A stretch of DNA of 64,000 nt from an archaeon (GCA_018692925.1 JABHLH010000004.1:26523-90522), one strand, 5' to 3'; positions 3,829 to 57,089 are shown, counted from the stretch's first letter. The notes: generated by a model not told the origin, from the sequence alone. Program-made: numbers and translations.

Positions 3829-4966
3829 AAGTATTTCAAAAAAAGAACACGTTGAAAAAGAAAGATTAAAAGAGGAAGCAGAGGATTATTATATTGAAAA
3901 ATCAAAAGAACTTAGATTAAAAGATTTAACTCGTTTCAAAAAATATTTTCCTGAACCAAGTGAGAATATGAAAAAAGATATTGCTTTTGCTCACAAAGAT
4001 ATCGACAAAATTGCAACAGCTATTGTTAGTAAAAAACCTTGGGCAGTTGTTTCAGGTTTAAATCCTTCTGGACCATTACATTTTGGACATAAAACTATTT
4101 TTGATGAACTTTTATGGTTACAAAAACATGGAGCTGAAATATTTATTCCTCTTACAAATGATGAAAGTTATATTGTTGATAAAACAAAAACTTTAGCAGA
4201 ATCTAGAAAAATTGCTTATGAATCAGTTATGCCTAGCATTATAGCTATGGGTTTTGATCCTGAAAAAACACATATCTTTGTAGATTCAGATTATCCTGAT
4301 ATTTATAATGTTGCTATGCAATTATCTAAACAATTAAAGATTTCAAAAATAAGAAGTCTTTTCGGATTTAAAGATAGTGATAATGTAGGTTCTTTATTTT
4401 ATAGAGGTGCAGTTCAAGTTTCACAGATTTTACTTCCACAGTATATTGAGTTTAATGGTCCAATAATAACATTAATTCCAATTGGGATTGATCAACATCC
4501 ATATATATTACTTGCTAGAGATATTGCTAAGAAAAATGATATGCTCCCTCCTGCTGAATTAATTATGAAATTTTTACCTGGATTATTAGGTGCTGGTGGA
4601 AAGATGTCTGCTTCAATTAAAGGAAGTAGTATTTTTTTAACTGATGACATTAAAGAGGCAAAAGATAAAATTAAAAAGGCTTATACTGGTGGGATAATGT
4701 CTTCCAAATACCAAAAAGAACTTGGTGGTGTTCCAGAAGTTTGTTCCATATTTTTACTTCAGAAGTATCATTTTTTAAATCAAGAAGAAGCTGAAGAACT
4801 TAATATTAAATGTAGAAGTGGATTAGTTCTTTGTAGTGAATGTAAAAAATGTACAAATGTTTTTGTTGAAAATTATTTAAAGGATCACAAAGAAAAATTT
4901 GAAAAAGCTAAAACTGAAATCCCTAAATTTTTATTGAAAAAAAGAATCACTTCTATTTTAGAATAA
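3818..4966 (+). CDS. trpS: Tryptophanyl-tRNA synthetase (copy 2)
   Basis: GPLHFGH and GKMSAS motifs; collinear with copy 1. Track start at 3803 is a TTG; ATG at 3818 more likely. Confidence 0.85.
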   Translation: MDIESISKKEHVEKERLKEEAEDYYIEKSKELRLKDLTRFKKYFPEPSENMKKDIAFAHKDIDKIATAIVSKKPWAVVSGLNPSGPLHFGHKTIFDELLWLQKHGAEIFIPLTNDESYIVDKTKTLAESRKIAYESVMPSIIAMGFDPEKTHIFVDSDYPDIYNVAMQLSKQLKISKIRSLFGFKDSDNVGSLFYRGAVQVSQILLPQYIEFNGPIITLIPIGIDQHPYILLARDIAKKNDMLPPAELIMKFLPGLLGAGGKMSASIKGSSIFLTDDIKEAKDKIKKAYTGGIMSSKYQKELGGVPEVCSIFLLQKYHFLNQEEAEELNIKCRSGLVLCSECKKCTNVFVENYLKDHKEKFEKAKTEIPKFLLKKRITSILE

Positions 4967-5019
4967 TTCTTTTAAATTTATTCCCCAACATTTATAACTA
5001 ATAAAAAAACAAAAATCTT

Positions 5020-5850
5020 ATGTCTAATATAATTAAAATCAAAGAAATTGAAGTTAAAAGTATAATCACTCCTAGCAAATTACCTTCTGCTGATTTCGTA
5101 ATCAATCCATATATTGGTTGTCTACATTCTTGTATTTATTGTTATGCTGATTTCATGCGAAGGTTTACAGGGCACGGCGACGAGAAATGGGGCGAATTTG
5201 TTGATGTAAAAATAAATGCTGTTTCTGTTTTGGGCAATTTAAATAAAATTAAAGGAAAAACAGTTCTTTTTGGTTCTGTTACAGATCCTTATCATTCGAT
5301 TGAATCAAAATATCAAATTACAAGAAATCTTCTAAAAGCTTTAGTTAATGAAAAAACAAAAATTGAAATCTTAACTAAAAATGGATTACTAGCAAGAGAC
5401 ATTGATATATTACAAAAGTTTGAAGATATTACTGTGGGTTTTTCTCTTGCAATTCTTGATGAATCAACCAGTAAAAAATTAGAACCTTTTGCAAGCTCTC
5501 CTAAGATTAGAATAAAAACTCTTAAGGAAGCTAAAGAAGCAGGTCTAAAAACATTTGTTTTCCTTTCACCACTCTTTCCTTATATTAGTGAGATTGAAGA
5601 AATTATAGAATCAACAAAAGATTATGTAGATTATTTTATGTTTGAAAATTTAAATATTAGAGCAAATAATAGAGTACAAATTTTTAATTTTATAAAAGAA
5701 AATTTTCCTGATTTATTAGAAAAATATCAAGAGATTTATGACAAAGGAAATGAGATTTATTGGGAAGAACTTGAAGAAAAAATAAAAGTCTTATGTAAAA
5801 AACATTCTAAAGAATATAGAATATATTTTCATCATGGTAAAAACATTTAA
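5020..5850 (+). CDS. Radical SAM protein, SPL/Rv2578c-like
   Basis: NPYIGCLHSCIYCYADFM (CX3CX2C) and overall SplB-like organisation. Confidence 0.75.
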   Translation: MSNIIKIKEIEVKSIITPSKLPSADFVINPYIGCLHSCIYCYADFMRRFTGHGDEKWGEFVDVKINAVSVLGNLNKIKGKTVLFGSVTDPYHSIESKYQITRNLLKALVNEKTKIEILTKNGLLARDIDILQKFEDITVGFSLAILDESTSKKLEPFASSPKIRIKTLKEAKEAGLKTFVFLSPLFPYISEIEEIIESTKDYVDYFMFENLNIRANNRVQIFNFIKENFPDLLEKYQEIYDKGNEIYWEELEEKIKVLCKKHSKEYRIYFHHGKNI

Positions 5851-5875
5851 ATAATAAAATATTCTCCAAGTAACA

Positions 5876-6310
5876 ATGAACAAAACTGACATTAAAGAAA
5901 TAATACAAATAATTCTAAGCCATCTTGATAATCAAAAATTTACTTGGAGACTTGAAGGCAGTGCAAATTTACTAATTCAAGGAATAGAAACTTCTGTAAA
6001 TGATTTAGACATTACAACTGATGAAGAAGGAATAAAAATTTTCAGAAATCAACTTAAAGAATATATTGAAAAAGATTTTTTTAGTGAAAAGATAAATGGC
6101 CCTTCAATTATATGTAATATTAACTCTTTTGAAATTGAAATAAATTGTTATGGTGATAGAAAAATAAATTATTTTGATAAAATTCAAGAAATGACTTGGG
6201 AAAATTTAGATATACCTATATTACCCTTAAAATGGGCTAGAGAATTTTACAAACAAATAGATAGAAAAGAGAAAGTTGAATTGATTGACAAACATTTAAA
6301 TATTTCCTAA
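5876..6310 (+). CDS. Nucleotidyltransferase-fold protein
   Basis: LEGSANLLIQG...NDLDI (GS...DxD type motif). Confidence 0.5.
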   Translation: MNKTDIKEIIQIILSHLDNQKFTWRLEGSANLLIQGIETSVNDLDITTDEEGIKIFRNQLKEYIEKDFFSEKINGPSIICNINSFEIEINCYGDRKINYFDKIQEMTWENLDIPILPLKWAREFYKQIDRKEKVELIDKHLNIS

Positions 6311-6324
6311 TAATTCTTTTATTC

Positions 6325-7308
6325 ATGATAATTCCAGAAAAATTAAAACAAGGCGACGAAATTAGAGTAATCGCACCAGCAAGATCTTTATCTTTACTTT
6401 CAGAAGAGAATATTAACTCTGCAATAAAAAATTTAGAAACTGAAGGTTTCAAAGTAACTTTCTCAAAAAATTGCAAAGAGTCAGATATTTTCATGTCATC
6501 TTCAATACAATCTAGAGTAGATGATCTTCATGAAGCTTTTTCTGATAAAAATGTAAAAGCAATCCTTACAGTTATTGGTGGTTTTAATTCAAATCAACTT
6601 TTAAAATATTTAGACTACGAACTAATTAAAAACAATCCTAAGATTTTATGTGGCTATTCTGATATAACAGCTTTAGCAAATGCTATAACAACAAAAACAG
6701 GATTAATTACATATTCTGGTCCACACTTTTCAACTTTTGCTTTAGAAAATGGTGCAGATTATAATAAAGAATATTTCAAAAAATGCTTATCTCAAGATAA
6801 AGAATTTACAGTTGAAGCTTCAAAGACTTGGTTTGAAGATGAATGGTGGATAGATCAAAAAATCACACCTAAGGAAAATGAAGGTTTCTTTGTAATAAAC
6901 AAAGGTAAAGTTGAAGGAAAAATTATTGGTGGAAATCTTTGCACTTTTAATTTACTTCATGGTACAGAATTTATGCCTGATTTAAAAGATTCAATTTTAT
7001 TCCTAGAAGATTGTGTTGAAGACGAAGATTTATTTGTCTTAAATTTTGACAGAGATTTACAATCTATAATTCATCTACCTGGTTTTGAAGGTGTAAAAGC
7101 TATTGTTTTTGGAAGATTTGAAACAAAATCTAAAATGACAAAGGAGAAATTATTAAAAATTCTTGAGACTAAAAAGGAATTAAAAGATTTACCTATTCTT
7201 GCTGGTCTAGATTTTGGTCATACTAACATTATGATGACTTTCCCTATAGGTGGAACATGTTCTTTAGATCTTGACGATAAAGTAGAATTGAAGATTATTG
7301 AACATTAA
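6325..7308 (+). CDS. S66 peptidase (LD-carboxypeptidase / MccF-like)
   Basis: Start LKQGDEIRVIAPA, nucleophile motif LCGYSDITAL, FLEDCVEDED region. Confidence 0.8.
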   Translation: MIIPEKLKQGDEIRVIAPARSLSLLSEENINSAIKNLETEGFKVTFSKNCKESDIFMSSSIQSRVDDLHEAFSDKNVKAILTVIGGFNSNQLLKYLDYELIKNNPKILCGYSDITALANAITTKTGLITYSGPHFSTFALENGADYNKEYFKKCLSQDKEFTVEASKTWFEDEWWIDQKITPKENEGFFVINKGKVEGKIIGGNLCTFNLLHGTEFMPDLKDSILFLEDCVEDEDLFVLNFDRDLQSIIHLPGFEGVKAIVFGRFETKSKMTKEKLLKILETKKELKDLPILAGLDFGHTNIMMTFPIGGTCSLDLDDKVELKIIEH

Positions 7309-7489
7309 AAAAACTAGAATAATCTCCATCAAAAAAAGATTCACTTGAATAAACTGGGTAAGCTAGATATATTTCCCCACAAGAACATTTTGCATATACA
7401 TCTCCAGAAAACTCATCAATTTCACAAATACTTCCTTCTCCGCAACATTCATTCTCAATTAGGCTTCCAATATCAAATTCATCTATCAT
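7295..7489 (-). CDS. Small Cys-containing hypothetical protein
   Basis: 64 aa ORF with CC...C...C.C residues (ENECCGEGSICE...AKCSCGE). Confidence 0.4.
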   Translation of the reverse strand: MIDEFDIGSLIENECCGEGSICEIDEFSGDVYAKCSCGEIYLAYPVYSSESFFDGDYSSFFNVQ

Positions 7490-7570
7490 ATATAGCCTGA
7501 TATTAGAACTCTTATTAAAGATTTTCTATAGAAAGCTTTTTAAAATACTAAATTTCTATGAGTATATCAC

Positions 7571-7643
7571 GGGCTAGTGATCTAGTGGCTATGATGTCTC
7601 CCTTACAAGGAGAATATCGGAGGTTCGAGTCCTCCCTGGCCCA
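7571..7643 (+). tRNA. tRNA-Val(TAC)
   Basis: GGGCTAG/CTGGCCC acceptor, TCTCC-CTTACAA-GGAGA anticodon arm, GGAGG-TTCGAGT-CCTCC T-arm, A73. Confidence 0.95.
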
Positions 7644-7678
7644 TTACTTTTATATAATCTTAATGACTTCTCAACATT

Positions 7679-8050
7679 ATGAAAGGAAATATTCATGGAA
7701 TCGGAAATGAAGGTCGATATAACTATATAGTCTTAAATAAAGAACAAAAAATTATTGACTTTATAGAAAAAGTATTAAAGGACCTATTTCAAGAAGAGAT
7801 ACACTTAGAATATTTCTATACTGATGAATATCAATCCATTGAAGAAGCAAGAGAGAAAAAACCAGGAAAAAAAGTAAAGAAAAAAGTTGAAGAGATTATT
7901 GACCAAAGATTTAATTTTTCTGGAGAAGATTATAAAATAGATCTTATTTTTGGTAAAGATAAAGTTTTCATTATAGCTGATATCAGTCTGGATAAGAGAA
8001 AGGAATTAATTCAGATTCTCAAAGAGATGTTCAAATTCAATGGAGAATAA
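7679..8050 (+). CDS. Hypothetical protein
   Basis: 123 aa ORF with TATA-like upstream sequence. Confidence 0.5.
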   Translation: MKGNIHGIGNEGRYNYIVLNKEQKIIDFIEKVLKDLFQEEIHLEYFYTDEYQSIEEAREKKPGKKVKKKVEEIIDQRFNFSGEDYKIDLIFGKDKVFIIADISLDKRKELIQILKEMFKFNGE

Positions 8051-47089: not shown

Positions 47090-48133
47090 ATGAAAGAAAC
47101 ACTTCCAGGTACTTTGAGGATAAAAACTAAAGATTTACAAGTTTACGAAAAAACAAAATCTTCTTGGAAAAAGTCAAAAGTTAAATTTCCAAATGCTAGT
47201 CAAGTAATTAAACTTTTCAAAAAAAGTAAAAATTTAAAATCTTTAATTGACAAAAATGATCCCAACTTTCTAAAAGGACAATTGTCTTCTGAAGGCAAAT
47301 GTCAAGGTGCAAGAATAAATATTTTACCAAACAATAAAACTTTGGACAAAGCATATTCTTTATTTGCAAATCACTTAACTATTCACGATCAAAAATCAAA
47401 TGAACACTGGGATGTATTACTACAAAATCCAGGTGGAACTTATGCTTACATTTACACTTTAGATAAAAAATCAAAAGCAAAATTAAGGAAATACAAAAAG
47501 GTAAAAGAATTTGATAAACATTATCCTTTAATCAAAAGAAAAGTTACTTTGGCATTAAAAAATAAAAATGATCATTTAGCTTTACCTATGTACACATTAC
47601 TAAATACTTACATGCGGGTAGGGAACGAAATTTATTTCAAGGCTCATGGACATAAAGGTCTTACAACTTTAAAGAAAAAAGATATTAAAATCAAAGGCAA
47701 AGAAGTAACTTTCAATTATCTTGCTAAAGATGGAGTTCCAAGAACAATTAAAAAAAATTTTCCTCCAAATTATCTTAGAAGATTAAATAAAAAATTAAAA
47801 GATTTAAAAACTGATTCTTTTGTTTTCACAGGCCCAAATGGACATCCTCTAAAAGATACAAAATTCAAAGAAGCTTTCAAAAGTTATTGTGGGAAAGAAT
47901 TTTATCCACACATAGTTAGATCACACCATGCAAGTTTAAGGGCAAGAGAATTTCTTAAAACTCACAAAACAACAAACAAAAAAGAAATGAAAGAATTCTT
48001 CTTATCATTAGCTCAGGACTTAGGACACAAGAAATTCTCAAAGAAAGAAAATATTTGGAAAGAAAGTTATACAGTTACTCTAAATCATTATGTTGATCCT
48101 GAACTGGTTGAAAAGATCAGAGCTTTGGTATAA
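47090..48133 (+). CDS. Type IB DNA topoisomerase
   Basis: MRVGNEIYF...GLTTLKKKDI, HIVRSHHAS, C-terminal catalytic Tyr region KESYTVTLNHYVDP. Confidence 0.8.
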   Translation: MKETLPGTLRIKTKDLQVYEKTKSSWKKSKVKFPNASQVIKLFKKSKNLKSLIDKNDPNFLKGQLSSEGKCQGARINILPNNKTLDKAYSLFANHLTIHDQKSNEHWDVLLQNPGGTYAYIYTLDKKSKAKLRKYKKVKEFDKHYPLIKRKVTLALKNKNDHLALPMYTLLNTYMRVGNEIYFKAHGHKGLTTLKKKDIKIKGKEVTFNYLAKDGVPRTIKKNFPPNYLRRLNKKLKDLKTDSFVFTGPNGHPLKDTKFKEAFKSYCGKEFYPHIVRSHHASLRAREFLKTHKTTNKKEMKEFFLSLAQDLGHKKFSKKENIWKESYTVTLNHYVDPELVEKIRALV

Positions 48134-49655: not shown

Positions 49656-50888
49656 ATGGGATATGATGGAACAAGAATCTATTACAAAAGCAAAAAAAAC
49701 CAATTAGTAAGGGCCTTTGAAAAGGTAGACGAATCTGATATAACAGCAAACAATAAAAAGTTAATCAAAGAATTTTCTACAAATCTTTTATCAAGAGGTA
49801 GATCTGAACAAAGAGTTTCTAAATTAATTCATCAAGTTAAAGTTTTAGCTGAGGTTGCAGAAAATGATTTAGATCAACTAAATAAAAGGGATATAGAGCG
49901 AATACTCTGTTATATTGAGCAACAAAATAAGCATTCTGCGACAACTAAAGCCGATTACAAGAGAGCTTTAAAACAGTTTTATAAGTGGTTAGAAGAGGAC
50001 GATGATAGGTTGTTTAAAGCGGAGGAATTAGAGAGAATTAGGTTAACAAGATTTTATCAATATATTAAAAAGATTGAAAAGAAAGAACAGATTATACAAA
50101 TAGATCCAACAACAATTCTTACAGAAAAGGATATTGATAAGGTTGTAGAGGCAACTCCTAATTATAAAGAAAAAGCAATGATTAAATTTCTGCATGAAAG
50201 TGGAGCAAGAGTTGGTGAACTTCTTAATATGAAAGTTAAGGATATTGATTTTAAAGGGATGAATGCTAATATAATATTAGATGGTAAAACAGGTAAAAGA
50301 AAAATAACTTGTGTAACTTCAGTTCCTTACCTTGTAAGATATTTAGAGATTCATCCTTTTAAGGATAACCCTAATAGCTATTTTTGGTTAGGTGAAAATA
50401 CAAGAATGATGCATAAACCTATTAGATATATCGGTGCTAAAAAAATTATTGCTAAGTGTTTTAAGAAAGCTAATGTTAGTAAGAGACATAATCCTCATTG
50501 GTTTAGACATAGTAGAGCTTCCTTATTAGCTCCTGAGTTTCCAGAAGTAATGCTTTGTTCATATATGGGTTGGACACTGGGTTCTAAACAGGTTAGAAGA
50601 TATGTTCATTTGTCTAACAAACAATTAGAGCAGGCTTATATGAAAATGTATGGACTTCAAGACGAAAAAGAAGTAAGGAATCTACCATTAAAATGTGGTT
50701 GTGGTGTAATTAATGAAAAGAGTTCTAGATATTGTCATCAATGTAGCAGACCTTTGAATGTTCATGTGGCTCTACAAGATGAAGAGAAGAAAAGTATTGA
50801 GATGGATAAATCAATTAAATTTTTGATGGAGATTATGCAAGATCCTGAGTTGTATAAGAAGTTTCAGGAGTTTAAGGATCAAATTTAA
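49656..50888 (+). CDS. Tyrosine recombinase/integrase with C-terminal zinc ribbon
   Basis: ESGARVGELLNMKVKDI, HWFRHSRAS, VRRYVHLS (R..HxxR..Y); CGCGVINEKSSRYCHQCSRPL. Confidence 0.93.
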   Translation: MGYDGTRIYYKSKKNQLVRAFEKVDESDITANNKKLIKEFSTNLLSRGRSEQRVSKLIHQVKVLAEVAENDLDQLNKRDIERILCYIEQQNKHSATTKADYKRALKQFYKWLEEDDDRLFKAEELERIRLTRFYQYIKKIEKKEQIIQIDPTTILTEKDIDKVVEATPNYKEKAMIKFLHESGARVGELLNMKVKDIDFKGMNANIILDGKTGKRKITCVTSVPYLVRYLEIHPFKDNPNSYFWLGENTRMMHKPIRYIGAKKIIAKCFKKANVSKRHNPHWFRHSRASLLAPEFPEVMLCSYMGWTLGSKQVRRYVHLSNKQLEQAYMKMYGLQDEKEVRNLPLKCGCGVINEKSSRYCHQCSRPLNVHVALQDEEKKSIEMDKSIKFLMEIMQDPELYKKFQEFKDQI

Positions 50889-50926: not shown

Positions 50927-51073
50927 ATGGGTTCAAAAAACATTACTTTACGTGTAAATTCTGAACTTTATGATAAATATAGAGACTTCTGCAAAAAGAA
51001 AGGTTGGATTCTCTCTAGACAGTTTGAACTGATGATGGAAGAACAACTAAAAAATAACGAGGGGAGTAAATGA
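50927..51073 (+). CDS. 48-aa ribbon-helix-helix-like protein (below ORF-track cutoff)
   Basis: MGSKNITLRVNSELYDKYRDFCKKKGWILSRQFELMMEEQLKNNEGSK; ATGA overlap with next gene. Confidence 0.7.
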   Translation: MGSKNITLRVNSELYDKYRDFCKKKGWILSRQFELMMEEQLKNNEGSK

Positions 51074-52920
51074 AGTTGTATATTCCTATTGAAGCGAAAG
51101 CCCACACTCCACCATACAAAATTCATAGATATTTTGCCAGGAGGCCTTGGAATGTATTTAGTCAGCTTCTAGATCTTTACAGTAATAAATCAGACATAGT
51201 GTTAGATCCATTCTGCGGAGGAGGGGTCACAATCTATGAAGGCTTGAAGAATGGAAGGAAGATGGTAGGATTTGACTTGAATCCATTATCAATTCTCATA
51301 GTAAAAAATATGATTAAAAAGGAAACGGATAATGATTCAATAAATCAAGCATATACAAAATTGAAAGAATACCTTGAATACTTGTACTCAGAATATCCTC
51401 AGATAAATATTTCCACAGATAAAAAAACCTTGAAACCTACATTAGCTGTTGAAGAATGGAATGAATTGGCTTCTGAAGCAGAATGTAATTTATGTGGGCA
51501 GAAAACAATACTCTCAAATGAACATAAAATAAAGAATGGGCGCTATAGGTGTCAGAATAAAAAATGTGAAGGAAACAAAGAGTATATTGAACCAAAAAAT
51601 TGTAAACGGGTGGGACAGATATATTTATCATCTTTCGCTAAATCACCAATTACCAAAAAATATTATGCTGTTAATTTTGATGATAAAAGACAAAAAGCCA
51701 TTCTCGATCATATCAAATTCCTAAATGCTGAAATAAAAAACAATCATATATCAATCCCGCAAGACAAAATACCTCTGAATTGGGACAGGCAGCATGAAGA
51801 TTTATTACATAGAAAAGGAATAATTCATTTTCAAGATTTTTTCACAAAACGTAATTTGTTGATCAATCTATTATTATTGAATAAAATTAATCAACTTGAA
51901 GTAGATGATAGTGTTCGAGAAATATTGAGAGTTACCTTTAGTAGTAGTTTGAGGGACACGAACATTATGTCCTTTACACACCAAGGGTGGCAATCAGGGA
52001 AACCAACCACTTGGTCTAAACATGCCTATTGGGTTCCTAATCAATTCTGTGAAGTTAACGTAATGGATGCTTTTAGAAAAGCATATTCAAGAGTTAAGAG
52101 TGCTTTAGAATTTAACTCAACATTTGATTATGAAGTGAATAATGTTAATGATTTCTCAGGTTTAAAAAAGGGTAATGTCCTATTACAATCAAATAGTATA
52201 GAGGATTCTAACATACCTAAAAACTCAGTCGATACAATAATTACAGATCCCCCCTATGGAAGCAATGTTCAATATTTGGAATTATCTCATTTTTGGTATC
52301 CTTGGAATAAGGACCTTTATGATAAAAAGAATGTAAATTTTACAAAGGAAGCAGTGTCAAATAGAAAAAAGAATTTTGAAGGATCAAAGGGATTAAAAGA
52401 ATATGAAAATAATTTATTCAGAGTTTTCAATAAATGTTTTGAAGTGCTAAAGCCTAATGGTTTAATGGTATTAACATTCAATAATAAAGATATTGGTGCC
52501 TGGTTAGCATTAATGATTTCCATTTTTAGATCTGGTTTCAAATTTAAAAAAGAAGGGTTATTCTTCCAATCAGGAGTTAAAAACTATAGACAAACAGCAC
52601 ATACAAAATATGAAGGCTCACCATATGGTGATTTCATTTATGTATTTGCAAAGGACGCTGAAGAAAACAAGAAGAAGTCTAATGAAACAGAAGAAGAATT
52701 TATTGAGAAGTTAGATTCATTATTCCTGAAGCATATTAATCCAGATAAGCTGAAAAAAGATCATAATAAGGTAATAAAAGAAATGGTTTTGGAAGTTATA
52801 CCTTTGGTATCTGACTTTGCAACCACTCTACCAACAAATGGGAAACATACGTTGTATGAAAAATATAAAAAAAATCATTTAGACAAGATTTATAGTGGGA
52901 AATATGGCAAGAACAAGTGA
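51070..52920 (+). CDS. DNA methyltransferase (DUF1156/COG1743-like) with zinc-ribbon insert
   Basis: LDPFCGGGVTIYEG motif I, TDPPYGSNVQY motif IV, CNLCGQ...CQNKKC. Confidence 0.85.
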   Translation: MKLYIPIEAKAHTPPYKIHRYFARRPWNVFSQLLDLYSNKSDIVLDPFCGGGVTIYEGLKNGRKMVGFDLNPLSILIVKNMIKKETDNDSINQAYTKLKEYLEYLYSEYPQINISTDKKTLKPTLAVEEWNELASEAECNLCGQKTILSNEHKIKNGRYRCQNKKCEGNKEYIEPKNCKRVGQIYLSSFAKSPITKKYYAVNFDDKRQKAILDHIKFLNAEIKNNHISIPQDKIPLNWDRQHEDLLHRKGIIHFQDFFTKRNLLINLLLLNKINQLEVDDSVREILRVTFSSSLRDTNIMSFTHQGWQSGKPTTWSKHAYWVPNQFCEVNVMDAFRKAYSRVKSALEFNSTFDYEVNNVNDFSGLKKGNVLLQSNSIEDSNIPKNSVDTIITDPPYGSNVQYLELSHFWYPWNKDLYDKKNVNFTKEAVSNRKKNFEGSKGLKEYENNLFRVFNKCFEVLKPNGLMVLTFNNKDIGAWLALMISIFRSGFKFKKEGLFFQSGVKNYRQTAHTKYEGSPYGDFIYVFAKDAEENKKKSNETEEEFIEKLDSLFLKHINPDKLKKDHNKVIKEMVLEVIPLVSDFATTLPTNGKHTLYEKYKKNHLDKIYSGKYGKNK

Positions 52921-54229
52921 AACAAAACTAGTAATTAATGAAGAACTGCATCAATCAGTTTTACCTAAATATCTAGATGTATTAAAAAGGTTGAAAGCAA
53001 AGTTTGAGGTAGTTCAAGATTCAGAATTTTCAAATTTAGTTAATTTCAAAACTAACAAGACTCAACCAATCCACAATTGGTTTGATTATAAACAAGGATA
53101 CGCCTCACTATTAATTAACAAAATAATTGAAAAAGAATCTCCCGGAAAAAATGAATTTGTATTAGATCCTTTTTGTGGCGTTGGTACCACTAATGTCGTA
53201 GCACAAAGTATGGGTTTCAAATCAATCGGGTTTGATATAAATCCTGTCGCTACACTTGCTTCAAAAGTTAAATGTGCAAATTATAGTGAGCAGGATATTG
53301 AGATGATTCAAAAAGAAATAAACGCATTTAGTCCTACTGCTACAAAAATAGTTCCACAATCACCTTTATTAGATAAATCATTTGACACAAAAACTTTTAA
53401 TCAATTAATGAAAATAAAAGGTTTCTATGAAAAAACATCTAATGAAAAGGTTAGTGATTTTCTCAAGCTTGCATATCTCTCAATTGTTGAGAATTGCTCA
53501 AATAGAATCAAGGATGGAAATGGAATAAAGATTGTAAAGAATAAAAAGTCCGTAGGAGATGTTTATGTTTATTATAAATCTAAAGTTGAAAATATGATTA
53601 AGGATATTGGGCTTTCGAAAGAACATCCAAATAGCATCATTATTAATGGGTCTATGTTGATTGATGAAGATTTCAAAAAGATCAAAAAGAAGCAAGCAGG
53701 CATAGTTATATTTTCTCCTCCATATGCAAATTGTTTTGATTATTGTGAAGTATACAAATTAGAACTTTGGATGGGGGATTTTGTACAGGCATATAGTGAT
53801 TTTTGGAATTATCGATCAATTGCAATGAGATCACATGTAAATTCTAAATTTGATCATAATATCAATAATCCTAATCAGTCTGTGGAAATAATATCTCAAT
53901 TAATTTCTACTTTTAATATATGGAATAAAAACATTCCAGACATGGTAAAAGGTTACTTTGATGATATGGAAGAAATGCTTTCAAGATTGAAGGCAGTTAT
54001 GACTCCAAAGTCTAAATGTTATATTGTTGTAGCTAATTCAGGGTATAGGGGAGTACTAGTACCCACAGATTTATTAATATCGGAGATAGCATCTAAGCTA
54101 GGCTTCGTAGTTGAAGAAGTTATCCATGCAAGAAAGATTCGAGCCTCATCTCAACAAATGAAAGAGCTTCATGGCGAATATGAAAATTTGATGAGAGAAA
54201 GTATTATCGTGATTAGAAATGAAATATAA
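52895..54229 (+). CDS. Second DNA methyltransferase (N4/N6 type)
   Basis: LDPFCGVGTTNVVAQ motif I, FSPPYANCFDY motif IV; alternative start 52904. Confidence 0.8.
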   Translation: MGNMARTSETKLVINEELHQSVLPKYLDVLKRLKAKFEVVQDSEFSNLVNFKTNKTQPIHNWFDYKQGYASLLINKIIEKESPGKNEFVLDPFCGVGTTNVVAQSMGFKSIGFDINPVATLASKVKCANYSEQDIEMIQKEINAFSPTATKIVPQSPLLDKSFDTKTFNQLMKIKGFYEKTSNEKVSDFLKLAYLSIVENCSNRIKDGNGIKIVKNKKSVGDVYVYYKSKVENMIKDIGLSKEHPNSIIINGSMLIDEDFKKIKKKQAGIVIFSPPYANCFDYCEVYKLELWMGDFVQAYSDFWNYRSIAMRSHVNSKFDHNINNPNQSVEIISQLISTFNIWNKNIPDMVKGYFDDMEEMLSRLKAVMTPKSKCYIVVANSGYRGVLVPTDLLISEIASKLGFVVEEVIHARKIRASSQQMKELHGEYENLMRESIIVIRNEI

Positions 54230-57089
54230 TAAGCTGTTACTGAGCAAGATAAAAACGTGGAAAGAGTTAGAGAAACAGATAGAAGCTTTACCTACCACTA
54301 AACAGAGAGGAGATGCTTTTGAAGAATTTGTGTTCGTATACTTTAATCTCCATAAAACTCTGTATCAGATTTCTGAAGTTTATATGGAAAAAAATATACC
54401 TCTGAAATATAAACGAAAATTTGAACTGGAAAAGAAAGATTGTGGAGTTGACGGATTAATAATTCATCGTGATGGATCAGCTACAGGTTATCAAGTTAAG
54501 TTTAGAACAGATAGAAAAAAATCATCATATGATGAATTGGCGAAGTTCTGGGCAGAAGCAAAAAAAACAGATAATCATTTGACTATTGCTAACTGTTATT
54601 CCCTCTCAAGGTTATGTGCTAAACATAAAAAACATTTAAGTGTACTCGTAGATGAATTTGATGCTTTAGGTCATGAATTTTATAGTGAATTTTATGATTT
54701 TGTCAATGCAAAACCAGTGAGGAAAAAAGTTTTTAGACCATTTAAATATCAACAAAGAATGATTGTAAACACACTAAAGGGTTTTAGTAAGAATGATAGG
54801 GGAAAGTTAATTGCTGCATGTGGAACTGGTAAAACATTTACTGCATTACGAATAACTGAGGCTATGAAAACCCGAACTGTTCTTTTTCTTGCGCCAAGTT
54901 TAGCTTTAATAAAGCAAACTTTAGAGTCTTGGTCTGAACAGAGTGTGACTGATTTTTCATATCTATGTGTATGCAGCGACAAATCTGTCTCTGATGAGGT
55001 GGATGATGGTGATATAACCTTGTCTGATTTCAACATTCCGGTAACGACATCATTAGATCACATCTCTGCATACTTGTCTCACTCATTTAAAGGAAAAAAA
55101 GTGATTTTCTCAACATATCAGTCATTAGATGTATTAGCAAAAGCTATGAAAAAAACTAAAGGATTTACTTTTGACCTTTCTATCTTCGATGAAGCACATA
55201 GAACTGCAGGTGCAAAAAATTCAGGATTATTTACATTGGGACTTGATGATAATCATATTAGAAGTAAAAAAAGACTATTTATGACTGCGACAGAAAGACT
55301 ACTAAGACCTTGGATTGTAAAGAAAGCTCAAGAGTACAATAGACTTGTATTTTCTATGGATGATGAATCATTATATGGTCCAGTTTTTGATAGATTTAAT
55401 TTTGGAGAAGCTATAGGTATGAATGTAATATCTGATTACAAAATTATTGTAGCGGGTGTTAAAGAAAAAGAAGTATATGACCTAATTAAAAATGACAAAT
55501 TATTAGTTGATATTAAAGAAGGAACAAAGGAATACTATTCCTATGCTCAGAACATATTCAGGCAAGTAATGTTGGTAAAAGCAATGAAAGAATTACCAAT
55601 AAAAAAAGCAGTTACTTTTCATAGTACAGTAAAAGGTGCAAACGCATTTATTGATGGGATTGGCGGGGACGATATTTCATTGAAAAAAATACTTGAACGA
55701 ATGTGGTCGGATTTAGGTGATAATGATTTTTATCTTGACCACATAAATGGAACCATGTCTGCTGGTGAGCGTAAAGAAATACTAGATTTATTTAAGGATT
55801 CTAAATATGGTGTAATCTCTAATGCGAGATGTTTGACAGAAGGAGTTGATGTTCCAATTATAGATAGTATCTATTTCGTTAATCCTAAAAGTTCATTGAT
55901 AGATATTGTTCAGGCTTGCGGAAGGGCACTAAGAAAACCAATTGGCACAACAGAGAAAACAGCATATTTCATTGTACCAATCTTGATACCAGAGGGTAAG
56001 GTAGAAGCAGAGATAGTAAATGAAGTAGATTTTGAGATGCTTCATAACTTGATACAATCTCTTCGAGATCAAGATCTCAGGTTAGCAGAATGGGTAAATA
56101 AAATTAACCTCCAAGCTTCAAAAGGTAAATCCCACAAATTCTCAAAGAATTCAGATTCACCAATTGTTTTGAAGATGCCAGAAAACATTGACATAAAGAA
56201 ATTTGAAGAAAAACTGTATATAAGAATTGCAGAAGTTAATGGTGAACCAACCAAGTTCACATACAAAACTAAAAAGTATGGTAAAAAAGAGAGAAAAAGC
56301 GACTATAAAAGAATATTCACCACCTTGGGAGATTATTCTGTCGAGTCGTATAAAGAAAATCTTGTATTGCCTACCTTGAAAAAATTCAAAACTAAAATAG
56401 CTACCTTGAGTATGGAAAATATAAAAATTAACCACAATAATGTTTCTCATACTAGAAGATTAGGACTAATTGAAAAAGAAGGAAAAGAATTCAAGTTAAC
56501 CCCTTTAGGAGTTCAATTATTTGAAGATAAATTATCTTTTGAACAAATCTTTAAAGGTCAAATGTTAAGATATTATTCAACTGTTAAAGAAGATGAAGGA
56601 AAACGGATACTCTTCCCATATAGAGCTTGTCTAAAAATATTATTGGATGTTAAATCTATAAATTATGTAGAATTTGTATTCGGACTTTATTCAATGATAG
56701 ACTATTCCGAAGAATCAATAGCAGAATCAATAGAGGGAATAAAATATTTGAGAGAGAAATATTCTAATTTAGAAATCTTGAATGAAAAGAATAAACCCAA
56801 AGTACTCAAAGAGTTGAATGATCATTTTGGAACAAATTTTAGTTTAACAGATATCTGGGAAAAGAAGACAACAATTAACAATCAGTTTATTTATTTTAGA
56901 AATCATCTTGCATTATTTGAAGATTGTATCAACTGCGATAGAAAATCCGCAGCTCTCAAGAAGAATGGTGAAAGTAAAATAGTAGCATTGTTGATGAGAG
57001 ATCAAGATTTTGAAAAAGAGTCTGATGAAACACAATTGAGAAGAGGTTATATAGAGAATATCGTGATTTTCATGTTATTCAAATTATAA
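54219..57089 (+). CDS. Restriction-type PD-(D/E)XK nuclease-SF2 helicase fusion
   Basis: N-terminal GDAFEEF...GVDGLIIHRDGSATGYQVKF; helicase ACGTGKTFTALR, FDEAHR, MTATER, QACGRALRKP. Confidence 0.85.
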   Translation: MKYNKLLLSKIKTWKELEKQIEALPTTKQRGDAFEEFVFVYFNLHKTLYQISEVYMEKNIPLKYKRKFELEKKDCGVDGLIIHRDGSATGYQVKFRTDRKKSSYDELAKFWAEAKKTDNHLTIANCYSLSRLCAKHKKHLSVLVDEFDALGHEFYSEFYDFVNAKPVRKKVFRPFKYQQRMIVNTLKGFSKNDRGKLIAACGTGKTFTALRITEAMKTRTVLFLAPSLALIKQTLESWSEQSVTDFSYLCVCSDKSVSDEVDDGDITLSDFNIPVTTSLDHISAYLSHSFKGKKVIFSTYQSLDVLAKAMKKTKGFTFDLSIFDEAHRTAGAKNSGLFTLGLDDNHIRSKKRLFMTATERLLRPWIVKKAQEYNRLVFSMDDESLYGPVFDRFNFGEAIGMNVISDYKIIVAGVKEKEVYDLIKNDKLLVDIKEGTKEYYSYAQNIFRQVMLVKAMKELPIKKAVTFHSTVKGANAFIDGIGGDDISLKKILERMWSDLGDNDFYLDHINGTMSAGERKEILDLFKDSKYGVISNARCLTEGVDVPIIDSIYFVNPKSSLIDIVQACGRALRKPIGTTEKTAYFIVPILIPEGKVEAEIVNEVDFEMLHNLIQSLRDQDLRLAEWVNKINLQASKGKSHKFSKNSDSPIVLKMPENIDIKKFEEKLYIRIAEVNGEPTKFTYKTKKYGKKERKSDYKRIFTTLGDYSVESYKENLVLPTLKKFKTKIATLSMENIKINHNNVSHTRRLGLIEKEGKEFKLTPLGVQLFEDKLSFEQIFKGQMLRYYSTVKEDEGKRILFPYRACLKILLDVKSINYVEFVFGLYSMIDYSEESIAESIEGIKYLREKYSNLEILNEKNKPKVLKELNDHFGTNFSLTDIWEKKTTINNQFIYFRNHLALFEDCINCDRKSAALKKNGESKIVALLMRDQDFEKESDETQLRRGYIENIVIFMLFKL

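Follow-up and report, generated by a model that had tools for sequence, protein, structure and literature searches.

A putative ATP-dependent restriction-modification operon with two separate DNA methylases and a Type ISP-like nuclease-motor protein in an archaeal genome

Introduction

Do four overlapping genes in an archaeal genome (985 kb in 19 contigs), encoding a small putative DNA-binding protein, two DNA methyltransferases (MT1 and MT2) and a nuclease-helicase (HEL), make up a restriction-modification system, and if so, to which kind does it belong? The genes lie within a stretch of 64,000 nt (the window), and a preliminary description of this DNA had proposed a candidate undescribed system with the domain content of Type ISP enzymes, split over several genes, with two methylases and no obvious HsdS. 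The gene set was examined by profile and structure searches, by comparison with homologous loci and against the systems already known.

Materials and methods

Homologous loci were sought with an X-masked composite of conserved MT1, MT2 and HEL peptides. The query peptides present at each locus were checked separately to exclude that the association was produced by the composite query. Full-length HEL was modelled with AlphaFold2 from a 12-sequence alignment (pLDDT 75, pTM 0.61), and residues 600–956 were also modelled (pLDDT 72 overall, about 85 for residues 700–950). The nuclease-motor tree also included seven plasmid-borne Type ISP homologs and locus L002.

Results

Four ORFs were confirmed on the plus strand between 50927 and 57089 (Table 1), as the preliminary description had placed them. 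From 5' to 3' they overlap by 4, 17 and 11 nt and are accordingly read as a single operon. Promoter and terminator scans gave matches no more numerous than in shuffled sequences, composition along the operon was not distinct, and no att-like direct repeats were found around the operon or the integrase gene directly upstream of it. A DPANN-like archaeal host may be supposed from the genome size of 0.99 Mb and the archaeal XerA-type match of the integrase. The DUF2779 gene that begins 102 nt past HEL was excluded from the system because it was not seen beside the homologous operons listed.

Table 1. Coordinates of the operon, its motifs and surrounding genes in the window
Feature	Coordinates	Strand	Remarks
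Probable ribbon-helix-helix (RHH) ORF, 48 aa	50927..51073	+	Alternative GTG start 50909; accessory
MT1, DNA methyltransferase, 616 aa	51070..52920	+	Pfam/PADLOC matches, motifs
MT1 Cys4 ribbon (C139, C142, C161, C166)	51484..51567	+	Invariant in 15/15 sequences
MT1 catalytic motif IV DPPY, residues 393–396	52246..52257	+	Invariant in alignment
MT2, DNA methyltransferase, 441 aa	52904..54229	+	GTG start 52895 in mechanical ORF list
MT2 catalytic motif IV SPPY, residues 271–274	53714..53725	+	Invariant in alignment
HEL, nuclease, SF2 motor and predicted recognition-domain protein, 956 aa	54219..57089	+	Sequence, models
HEL N-terminal Mrr-type nuclease domain	54219..54713	+	E35, D78, Q92-x-K94
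HEL SF2 helicase-like motor	54729..56126	+	Walker A 54819–54836, DEAH 55188–55199, MTAT, QACGRALR 55911–55934
HEL C-terminal domain, residues 700–956	56316..57086	+	Predicted Type IIS-like DNA-recognition fold
HEL NNVSH motif	56436–56450	+	Invariant in 12/12 sequences
HEL TTxxNQ motif	56868–56885	+	Invariant in 12/12 sequences
Protein with three Laminin_G_3 stretches, 1694 aa	15998–21082		Probable large surface protein
Match to eukaryotic-type topoisomerase I catalytic core	47090–48133		Topoisom_I, E 7.7e-14
Stand-alone LAGLIDADG-type protein, 226 aa	48300–48980	-	
Tyrosine integrase, archaeal XerA-like	49656–50888		Probable C-terminal zinc ribbon
DUF2779 protein, 479 aa	57192–58631	+	Cas4-like nuclease and RNase H-like domains
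Protein with DnaG-type CHC2 zinc finger, 597 aa	59129–60922	-	

Both methylases matched N6_N4_Mtase of Pfam (MT1, E 1.5e-22; MT2, E 1.1e-14). A nearly full-length match of MT2 to the PADLOC MTase_II profile (E 6e-75) bore out its earlier identification as a second methylase. Motif I (DPFxGxG) precedes motif IV in both proteins, DPFCGGG being followed in MT1 by the Cys4 ribbon and then DPPY, and DPFCGVG in MT2 by SPPY. Among amino-methylases DPPY goes with m6A and SPPY with m4C, a rule that is imperfect; judged from motif IV, MT1 is probably m6A-like and MT2 m4C-like. MT1 had been called COG1743/DUF1156-like with a Zn ribbon; the ribbon is real, but the DUF1156 likeness is distant (72 bits against the DUF1156-type profile NF042963, for which the cut-off is 1000). 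Both proteins are of the PF01555 type. Searches of PDB sequences with MT1 and MT2 returned neither LlaBIII nor LlaGI, and thus gave no sign of their being detached Type ISP methylase domains. MT2-like methylases also exist without a HEL partner, and the wider MT2 family was present in 30 of 396 Bacteroidota genomes. A Pseudanabaena plasmid carries two MT2-related SPPY-type methylases in tandem with an annotated HNH endonuclease (L033 9001–12926), so that two methylases are there combined with a further kind of nuclease.

HEL matched ResIII (E 4.7e-21) and Helicase_C (E 3.7e-11) of Pfam, and Mrr_cat_2 just below the cut-off (E 4.2e-4). Its residues 13–635 aligned with residues 14–661 of LlaBIII over the full extent of nuclease and motor (E 1.6e-75); the D..QxK nuclease motif and the helicase motifs were in register. 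The Pfam helicase matches and this alignment confirm the 956-aa PD-(D/E)XK-SF2 helicase first reported. Compared with the PDB, the full-length model found LlaBIII first (E 8.9e-31) and LlaGI second. Across 12 HEL sequences E35, Q92 and K94 are invariant, as is D78 except for a tyrosine in one MAG homolog (L048 8827–11715); Walker A, DEAH, MTAT and QAxGRxLR are kept apart from single changes. In tblastn searches of plasmid sequences, mostly annotated Type ISP enzymes were matched, over a span reaching only to about residue 726, and of the 1646 positions of the PADLOC REase_MTase_IIG profile only the N-terminal 640 or so were matched. For residues 600–707 the model, of mixed to low confidence, shows a small number of helices along with a disordered linker.

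Residues 637–956 of HEL had no match in Pfam, among plasmid-encoded proteins or among PDB sequences, and the corresponding part of some homologs gave weak winged-helix hints. When the model of residues 600–956 was compared with the PDB using Foldseek, the best 12 matches were all to N.BspD6I or to the recognition domain of BpuJI (E 3.6e-4 to 1.1e-2, probability 0.99–1.00), followed by a thirteenth at E 0.18 and probability 0.13. The TM score against the Type IIS structures was 0.43 when normalised to the query, in which roughly a quarter of the residues are disordered. In a viral structure library the best match was a phage protein that bears the name of FokI (probability 0.92, E 0.09). No sequence similarity of the domain to Type IIS enzymes was detected, and the PF09491 (AlwI family) profile had no match in any genome searched, controls included. 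On the modelled fold, HEL probably bears its own, Type IIS-like DNA-recognition domain in its C-terminal 250 or so amino acids. No HsdS was found in the operon, nor any such gene common to the homologs, and the HsdS/HsdM/HsdR arrangement of Type I systems is not present; the earlier remark on HsdS was thus right for the operon, but a specificity element probably does exist in this predicted domain.

BrxA of BREX is also related to BpuJI by fold (PMC9240713), so that the fold alone is no proof of site-specific reading by HEL. DNA binding is lost in the BpuJI mutants N67A and Q208A (PMC9240713); the invariant C-terminal residues of HEL could instead serve folding or partner contacts. Mean pairwise identity was 0.42 in the C-terminal domain against 0.53 in the motor, a moderately greater divergence. 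In Type ISP enzymes, in contrast, the target recognition domains (TRDs) are described as varying far more than the first half of the protein does (PMC4872093), and this difference suggests that the HEL homologs share a target sequence.

The composite query was matched in two viral contigs and in 14 genome loci. Besides the window, 13 loci (L039, L040, L042–L049 and L051–L053) contain all three of MT1, MT2 and HEL, and the set in the window is therefore not due to chance. A survey of co-occurrence had been suggested for all four genes, and it is the three large ones, not the RHH gene, that were found together. The carriers are Bacteroidota, Cloacimonadota, Methanobrevibacter, a Thermoguttaceae bacterium (Planctomycetota) and the two viral contigs. 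The methylases are separate genes in all 14 full-set loci, window included. In loci with methylase query peptides only, HEL adjoins in six of eight (L041, which stops at a contig edge within MT2, was set aside), and both methylases adjoin in the two loci with the HEL query peptide only. L054 has a distant MT2 only. HEL is convergent, on the opposite strand, in L040, L052 and L053, and tandem in the remaining loci.

Some homologs are interrupted or altered. The genes of L047 are frameshifted, and HEL of Bacteroides faecalis (L045 12231–15118) lies in two frames with the break just before Walker A. This split and the D78Y change in L048 may be due to sequencing errors, phase variation or decay. 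In the viral contig IMGVR_UViG_3300005804_000113 (L040 9400–15505) the three genes stand after the terminase, between phage head-morphogenesis and portal genes (PHROGs), and a phage thus appears to carry the complete system.

Divergence was matched between MT1, MT2 and the nuclease, the motor and the C-terminal domain of HEL: their distance matrices were correlated at r 0.90–0.98, and none of 5000 permutations reached values as high. In the nuclease-motor tree the 12 system proteins formed one clade (support 100/99), apart from the plasmid-borne Type ISP homologs and L002. The system is rare, being present in one of 396 sampled Bacteroidota genomes, which was the seed itself.

The closest same-phylum homolog (L002 1459–4842) was excluded from the system for its different architecture: a Type ISP-like nuclease-helicase followed by helicase-associated-domain-like repeats in place of a methylase. 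Its exact placement in the tree is unsure because of its long branch. Apart from it, no strong relative of HEL was found in that phylum. A LAGLIDADG-like ORF lies beside L002.

After an MT1-MT2 pair with about 50% identity to that of the window, Pedobacter terrae (L050 9914–16757) encodes proteins of 389 aa and 411 aa with an AAA_5 ATPase between them, in place of HEL. The more distant L034 has a similar layout, with a weak McrBC match for its last gene. In L050, then, near relatives of MT1 and MT2 go with a McrBC-like effector, which suggests an exchange of marking and cutting modules. Upstream in the same Pedobacter locus a TmtA-like protein is encoded (4754–8008; PADLOC E 7e-290).

The 48-aa ORF was without a supporting match in Pfam, NCBIfam and PADLOC searches. 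Its RHH assignment is backed by the sequence pattern and by a small RHH-like ORF in the equivalent position of L031 (7784–7975), but not by the profile libraries. In L043, L045, L046, L048 and L051 an HTH_3/XRE-type gene occupies this position (called in L045 by near-identity to L043, and from a weak HTH match in L048), and some other loci have no regulator. Since a helix-turn-helix gene or none takes its place elsewhere, the RHH gene was judged not to belong to the core. The presence of such a gene in front recalls the controller genes known from other restriction-modification systems.

Discussion

The best explanation of this restriction-modification-like gene set is that, on the present evidence, it works like an ATP-dependent restriction-modification system. 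We hold it probable that the operon encodes such a system, with three core proteins acting on an asymmetric site of which MT1 and MT2 each modify one strand. The observations beneath it are the gene content, the intact catalytic motifs, the homology to LlaBIII, the repeated co-occurrence, the matched divergence and the single helicase clade. The recognition domain in this explanation is a model prediction, and we infer the steps of the mechanism and the base specificities. Against the explanation weigh the MT2-like methylases that exist without HEL and the pairing of MT1-MT2 with another effector in L050. In the most economical account, HEL would find its asymmetric site through the Type IIS-like C-terminal domain. 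On an unmethylated site, ATP hydrolysis by the SF2 motor would drive movement along the DNA and the N-terminal Mrr-type nuclease would cut, the probable trigger being, as with Type ISP enzymes, a collision of two HEL molecules or the blockage of one. MT1 (probably m6A) and MT2 (probably m4C) would each mark one strand of the same site, and expression is probably controlled by the small DNA-binding product of the leading gene, RHH here and XRE elsewhere. With both strands marked, every daughter duplex would keep one mark after replication. A Type ISP enzyme methylates a single strand of its asymmetric site and spares its own DNA by cleaving only where two unmodified sites stand head to head (PMC4666363); under one-strand marking, such site pairs are needed to tell self from foreign. 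Conservation of the HEL motor makes ATP-independent cleavage unlikely.

Other readings of the locus were weighed against this one. In Type ISP enzymes the target is read by the MTase-TRD part, as in LlaBIII (PMC7049714), and by extension MT1 and/or MT2, complexed with HEL in a split Type ISP-like holoenzyme, might read the target here, as HsdM-HsdS does in its own enzymes, while the HEL C-terminus served as coupler or DNA grip. The tight gene overlaps, the matched divergence of MT1, MT2 and HEL, and the different effector that partners MT1-MT2 in L050 speak for such an arrangement. We nevertheless consider it rather unlikely: the predicted C-terminal fold resembles complete recognition domains of methylase-independent enzymes and not a helical coupler, the convergent HEL genes of L040, L052 and L053 indicate that close co-translation is not required, and neither methylase is LlaBIII-like by sequence.

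The distant relationship of MT1 to DUF1156-type methylases, which belong to BREX-related systems (PMC12839542), would also be in keeping with a defence of BREX/DISARM-like or Type IV-like nature, where self-DNA is marked by the methylases and HEL acts by a replication block or by DNA degradation that involves no site-specific cleavage. The BREX-related Type-1 systems, however, combine a DUF499 ATPase and a methylase with a Swi2/Snf2 helicase (PMC12839542); no DUF499 ATPase was found beside these genes in the window or in the neighbours examined, and the HEL motor is of the Type ISP type by both sequence and structure, so that a defence of this kind appears very improbable. Least credible of all, and only barely so, is a mobile-element remnant that has lost restriction. 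The adjoining integrase gene, the interrupted homologs in L045 and L047 and the D78 replacement in L048 could be taken as signs of decay, but the four ORFs of the window are intact, and retention of the catalytic motifs down to 32–38% pairwise identity across phyla points to selection.

A more far-reaching form of the restriction-modification reading may be put forward tentatively, with the balance of our judgement somewhat against it: that a Type IIS reader was grafted on a Type ISP translocating nuclease and joined by m6A and m4C methylases, that the result is a separate class without need for head-to-head sites, and that one target is kept across phyla. If the graft is real, self and non-self would be discriminated in this class without head-to-head site pairs. 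In the operon a motor of the Type ISP kind seems to have lost its tie to the Type ISP methylase and to have gained a separate reader and two methylases. The system allows a direct test of whether head-to-head communication becomes dispensable once both strands are marked, and would be a natural example of the re-targeting of a translocating nuclease. The engineering of restriction enzymes to new specificities has been called an unaccomplished challenge (PMC4872093).

Comparison with known systems

At the profile level, the gene set matched no catalogued system in PADLOC, the methylases matching generic MTase_II profiles, and no description was found in open-access papers. The check for an already catalogued defence subtype was accordingly negative at this level, and the word "undescribed" may stand for PADLOC, Pfam, NCBIfam and open-access papers, but its reach ends with these sources.

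With the Type ISP enzymes LlaGI and LlaBIII the system shares a homologous nuclease and SF2 ATPase motor, and an asymmetric-site logic is expected. Those enzymes, however, are single chains that continue into an alpha-helical coupler, a methylase of the gamma class (PMC4872093) and a TRD. HEL, in contrast, has 956 aa and no methylase (intact Type ISP ORFs compared have 1554–1705 aa) and ends in a predicted Type IIS-like domain, and the two methylases are separate genes of another type, PF01555. Since it has neither the single chain nor the gamma-class methylase, the system was not assigned to Type ISP. That it is a fragmented Type ISP chain was ruled out on the PF01555 type of the methylases and their lack of a sequence match to LlaBIII or LlaGI; of the initial likeness to a split Type ISP enzyme, the motor and nuclease, the separate genes and the two methylases remain, but not the fragmented chain.

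LlaJI uses two methylases to modify its site fully, and its restriction enzyme contains a recognition domain of its own (PMC1459862, PMC12707154). Two separate methylases for an asymmetric site, adjacent to the genes of an NTP-dependent restriction enzyme that reads for itself, would be common to both systems. The LlaJI methylases are of the m5C type, however, and its restriction enzyme combines a B3 recognition domain with a McrBC-like GTPase and nuclease, whereas the window has a Type ISP-like motor together with DPPY and SPPY methylases. L050 and the more distant L034 are the only loci in which McrB/McrC-like genes come after the two methylases, and for want of McrBC-like subunits the system was not filed under LlaJI; nor was it assigned to Type I.

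ATP-dependent restriction with a recognition domain of its own is also found in NgoAVII, which consists of a PLD/B3 protein and a separate helicase. CglI shares with the present system ATP-dependent restriction, an own recognition domain and an asymmetric site, but has its PLD nuclease and B3 domain on one protein and its helicase on another (PMC5737866), whereas HEL is one chain built of other domains.

BREX-related Type-1 systems (DUF1156 methylase, DUF499 ATPase, Snf2 helicase-nuclease) have in common with the operon a distantly related methylase and the logic of methylase plus helicase-nuclease. They differ from it in the helicase family, and the operon has two methylases; no BrxC, DUF499 ATPase or PglZ was found among the window genes scanned around it. 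The Type IIS enzymes N.BspD6I and BpuJI share the predicted recognition fold of the HEL C-terminal model (N.BspD6I/BpuJI/FokI-type), with no similarity at the sequence level, but they have a local cleavage domain where HEL has a putatively translocating nuclease. The operon would thus join a Type ISP-like motor and nuclease with the logic of LlaJI and a predicted Type IIS-like reader.
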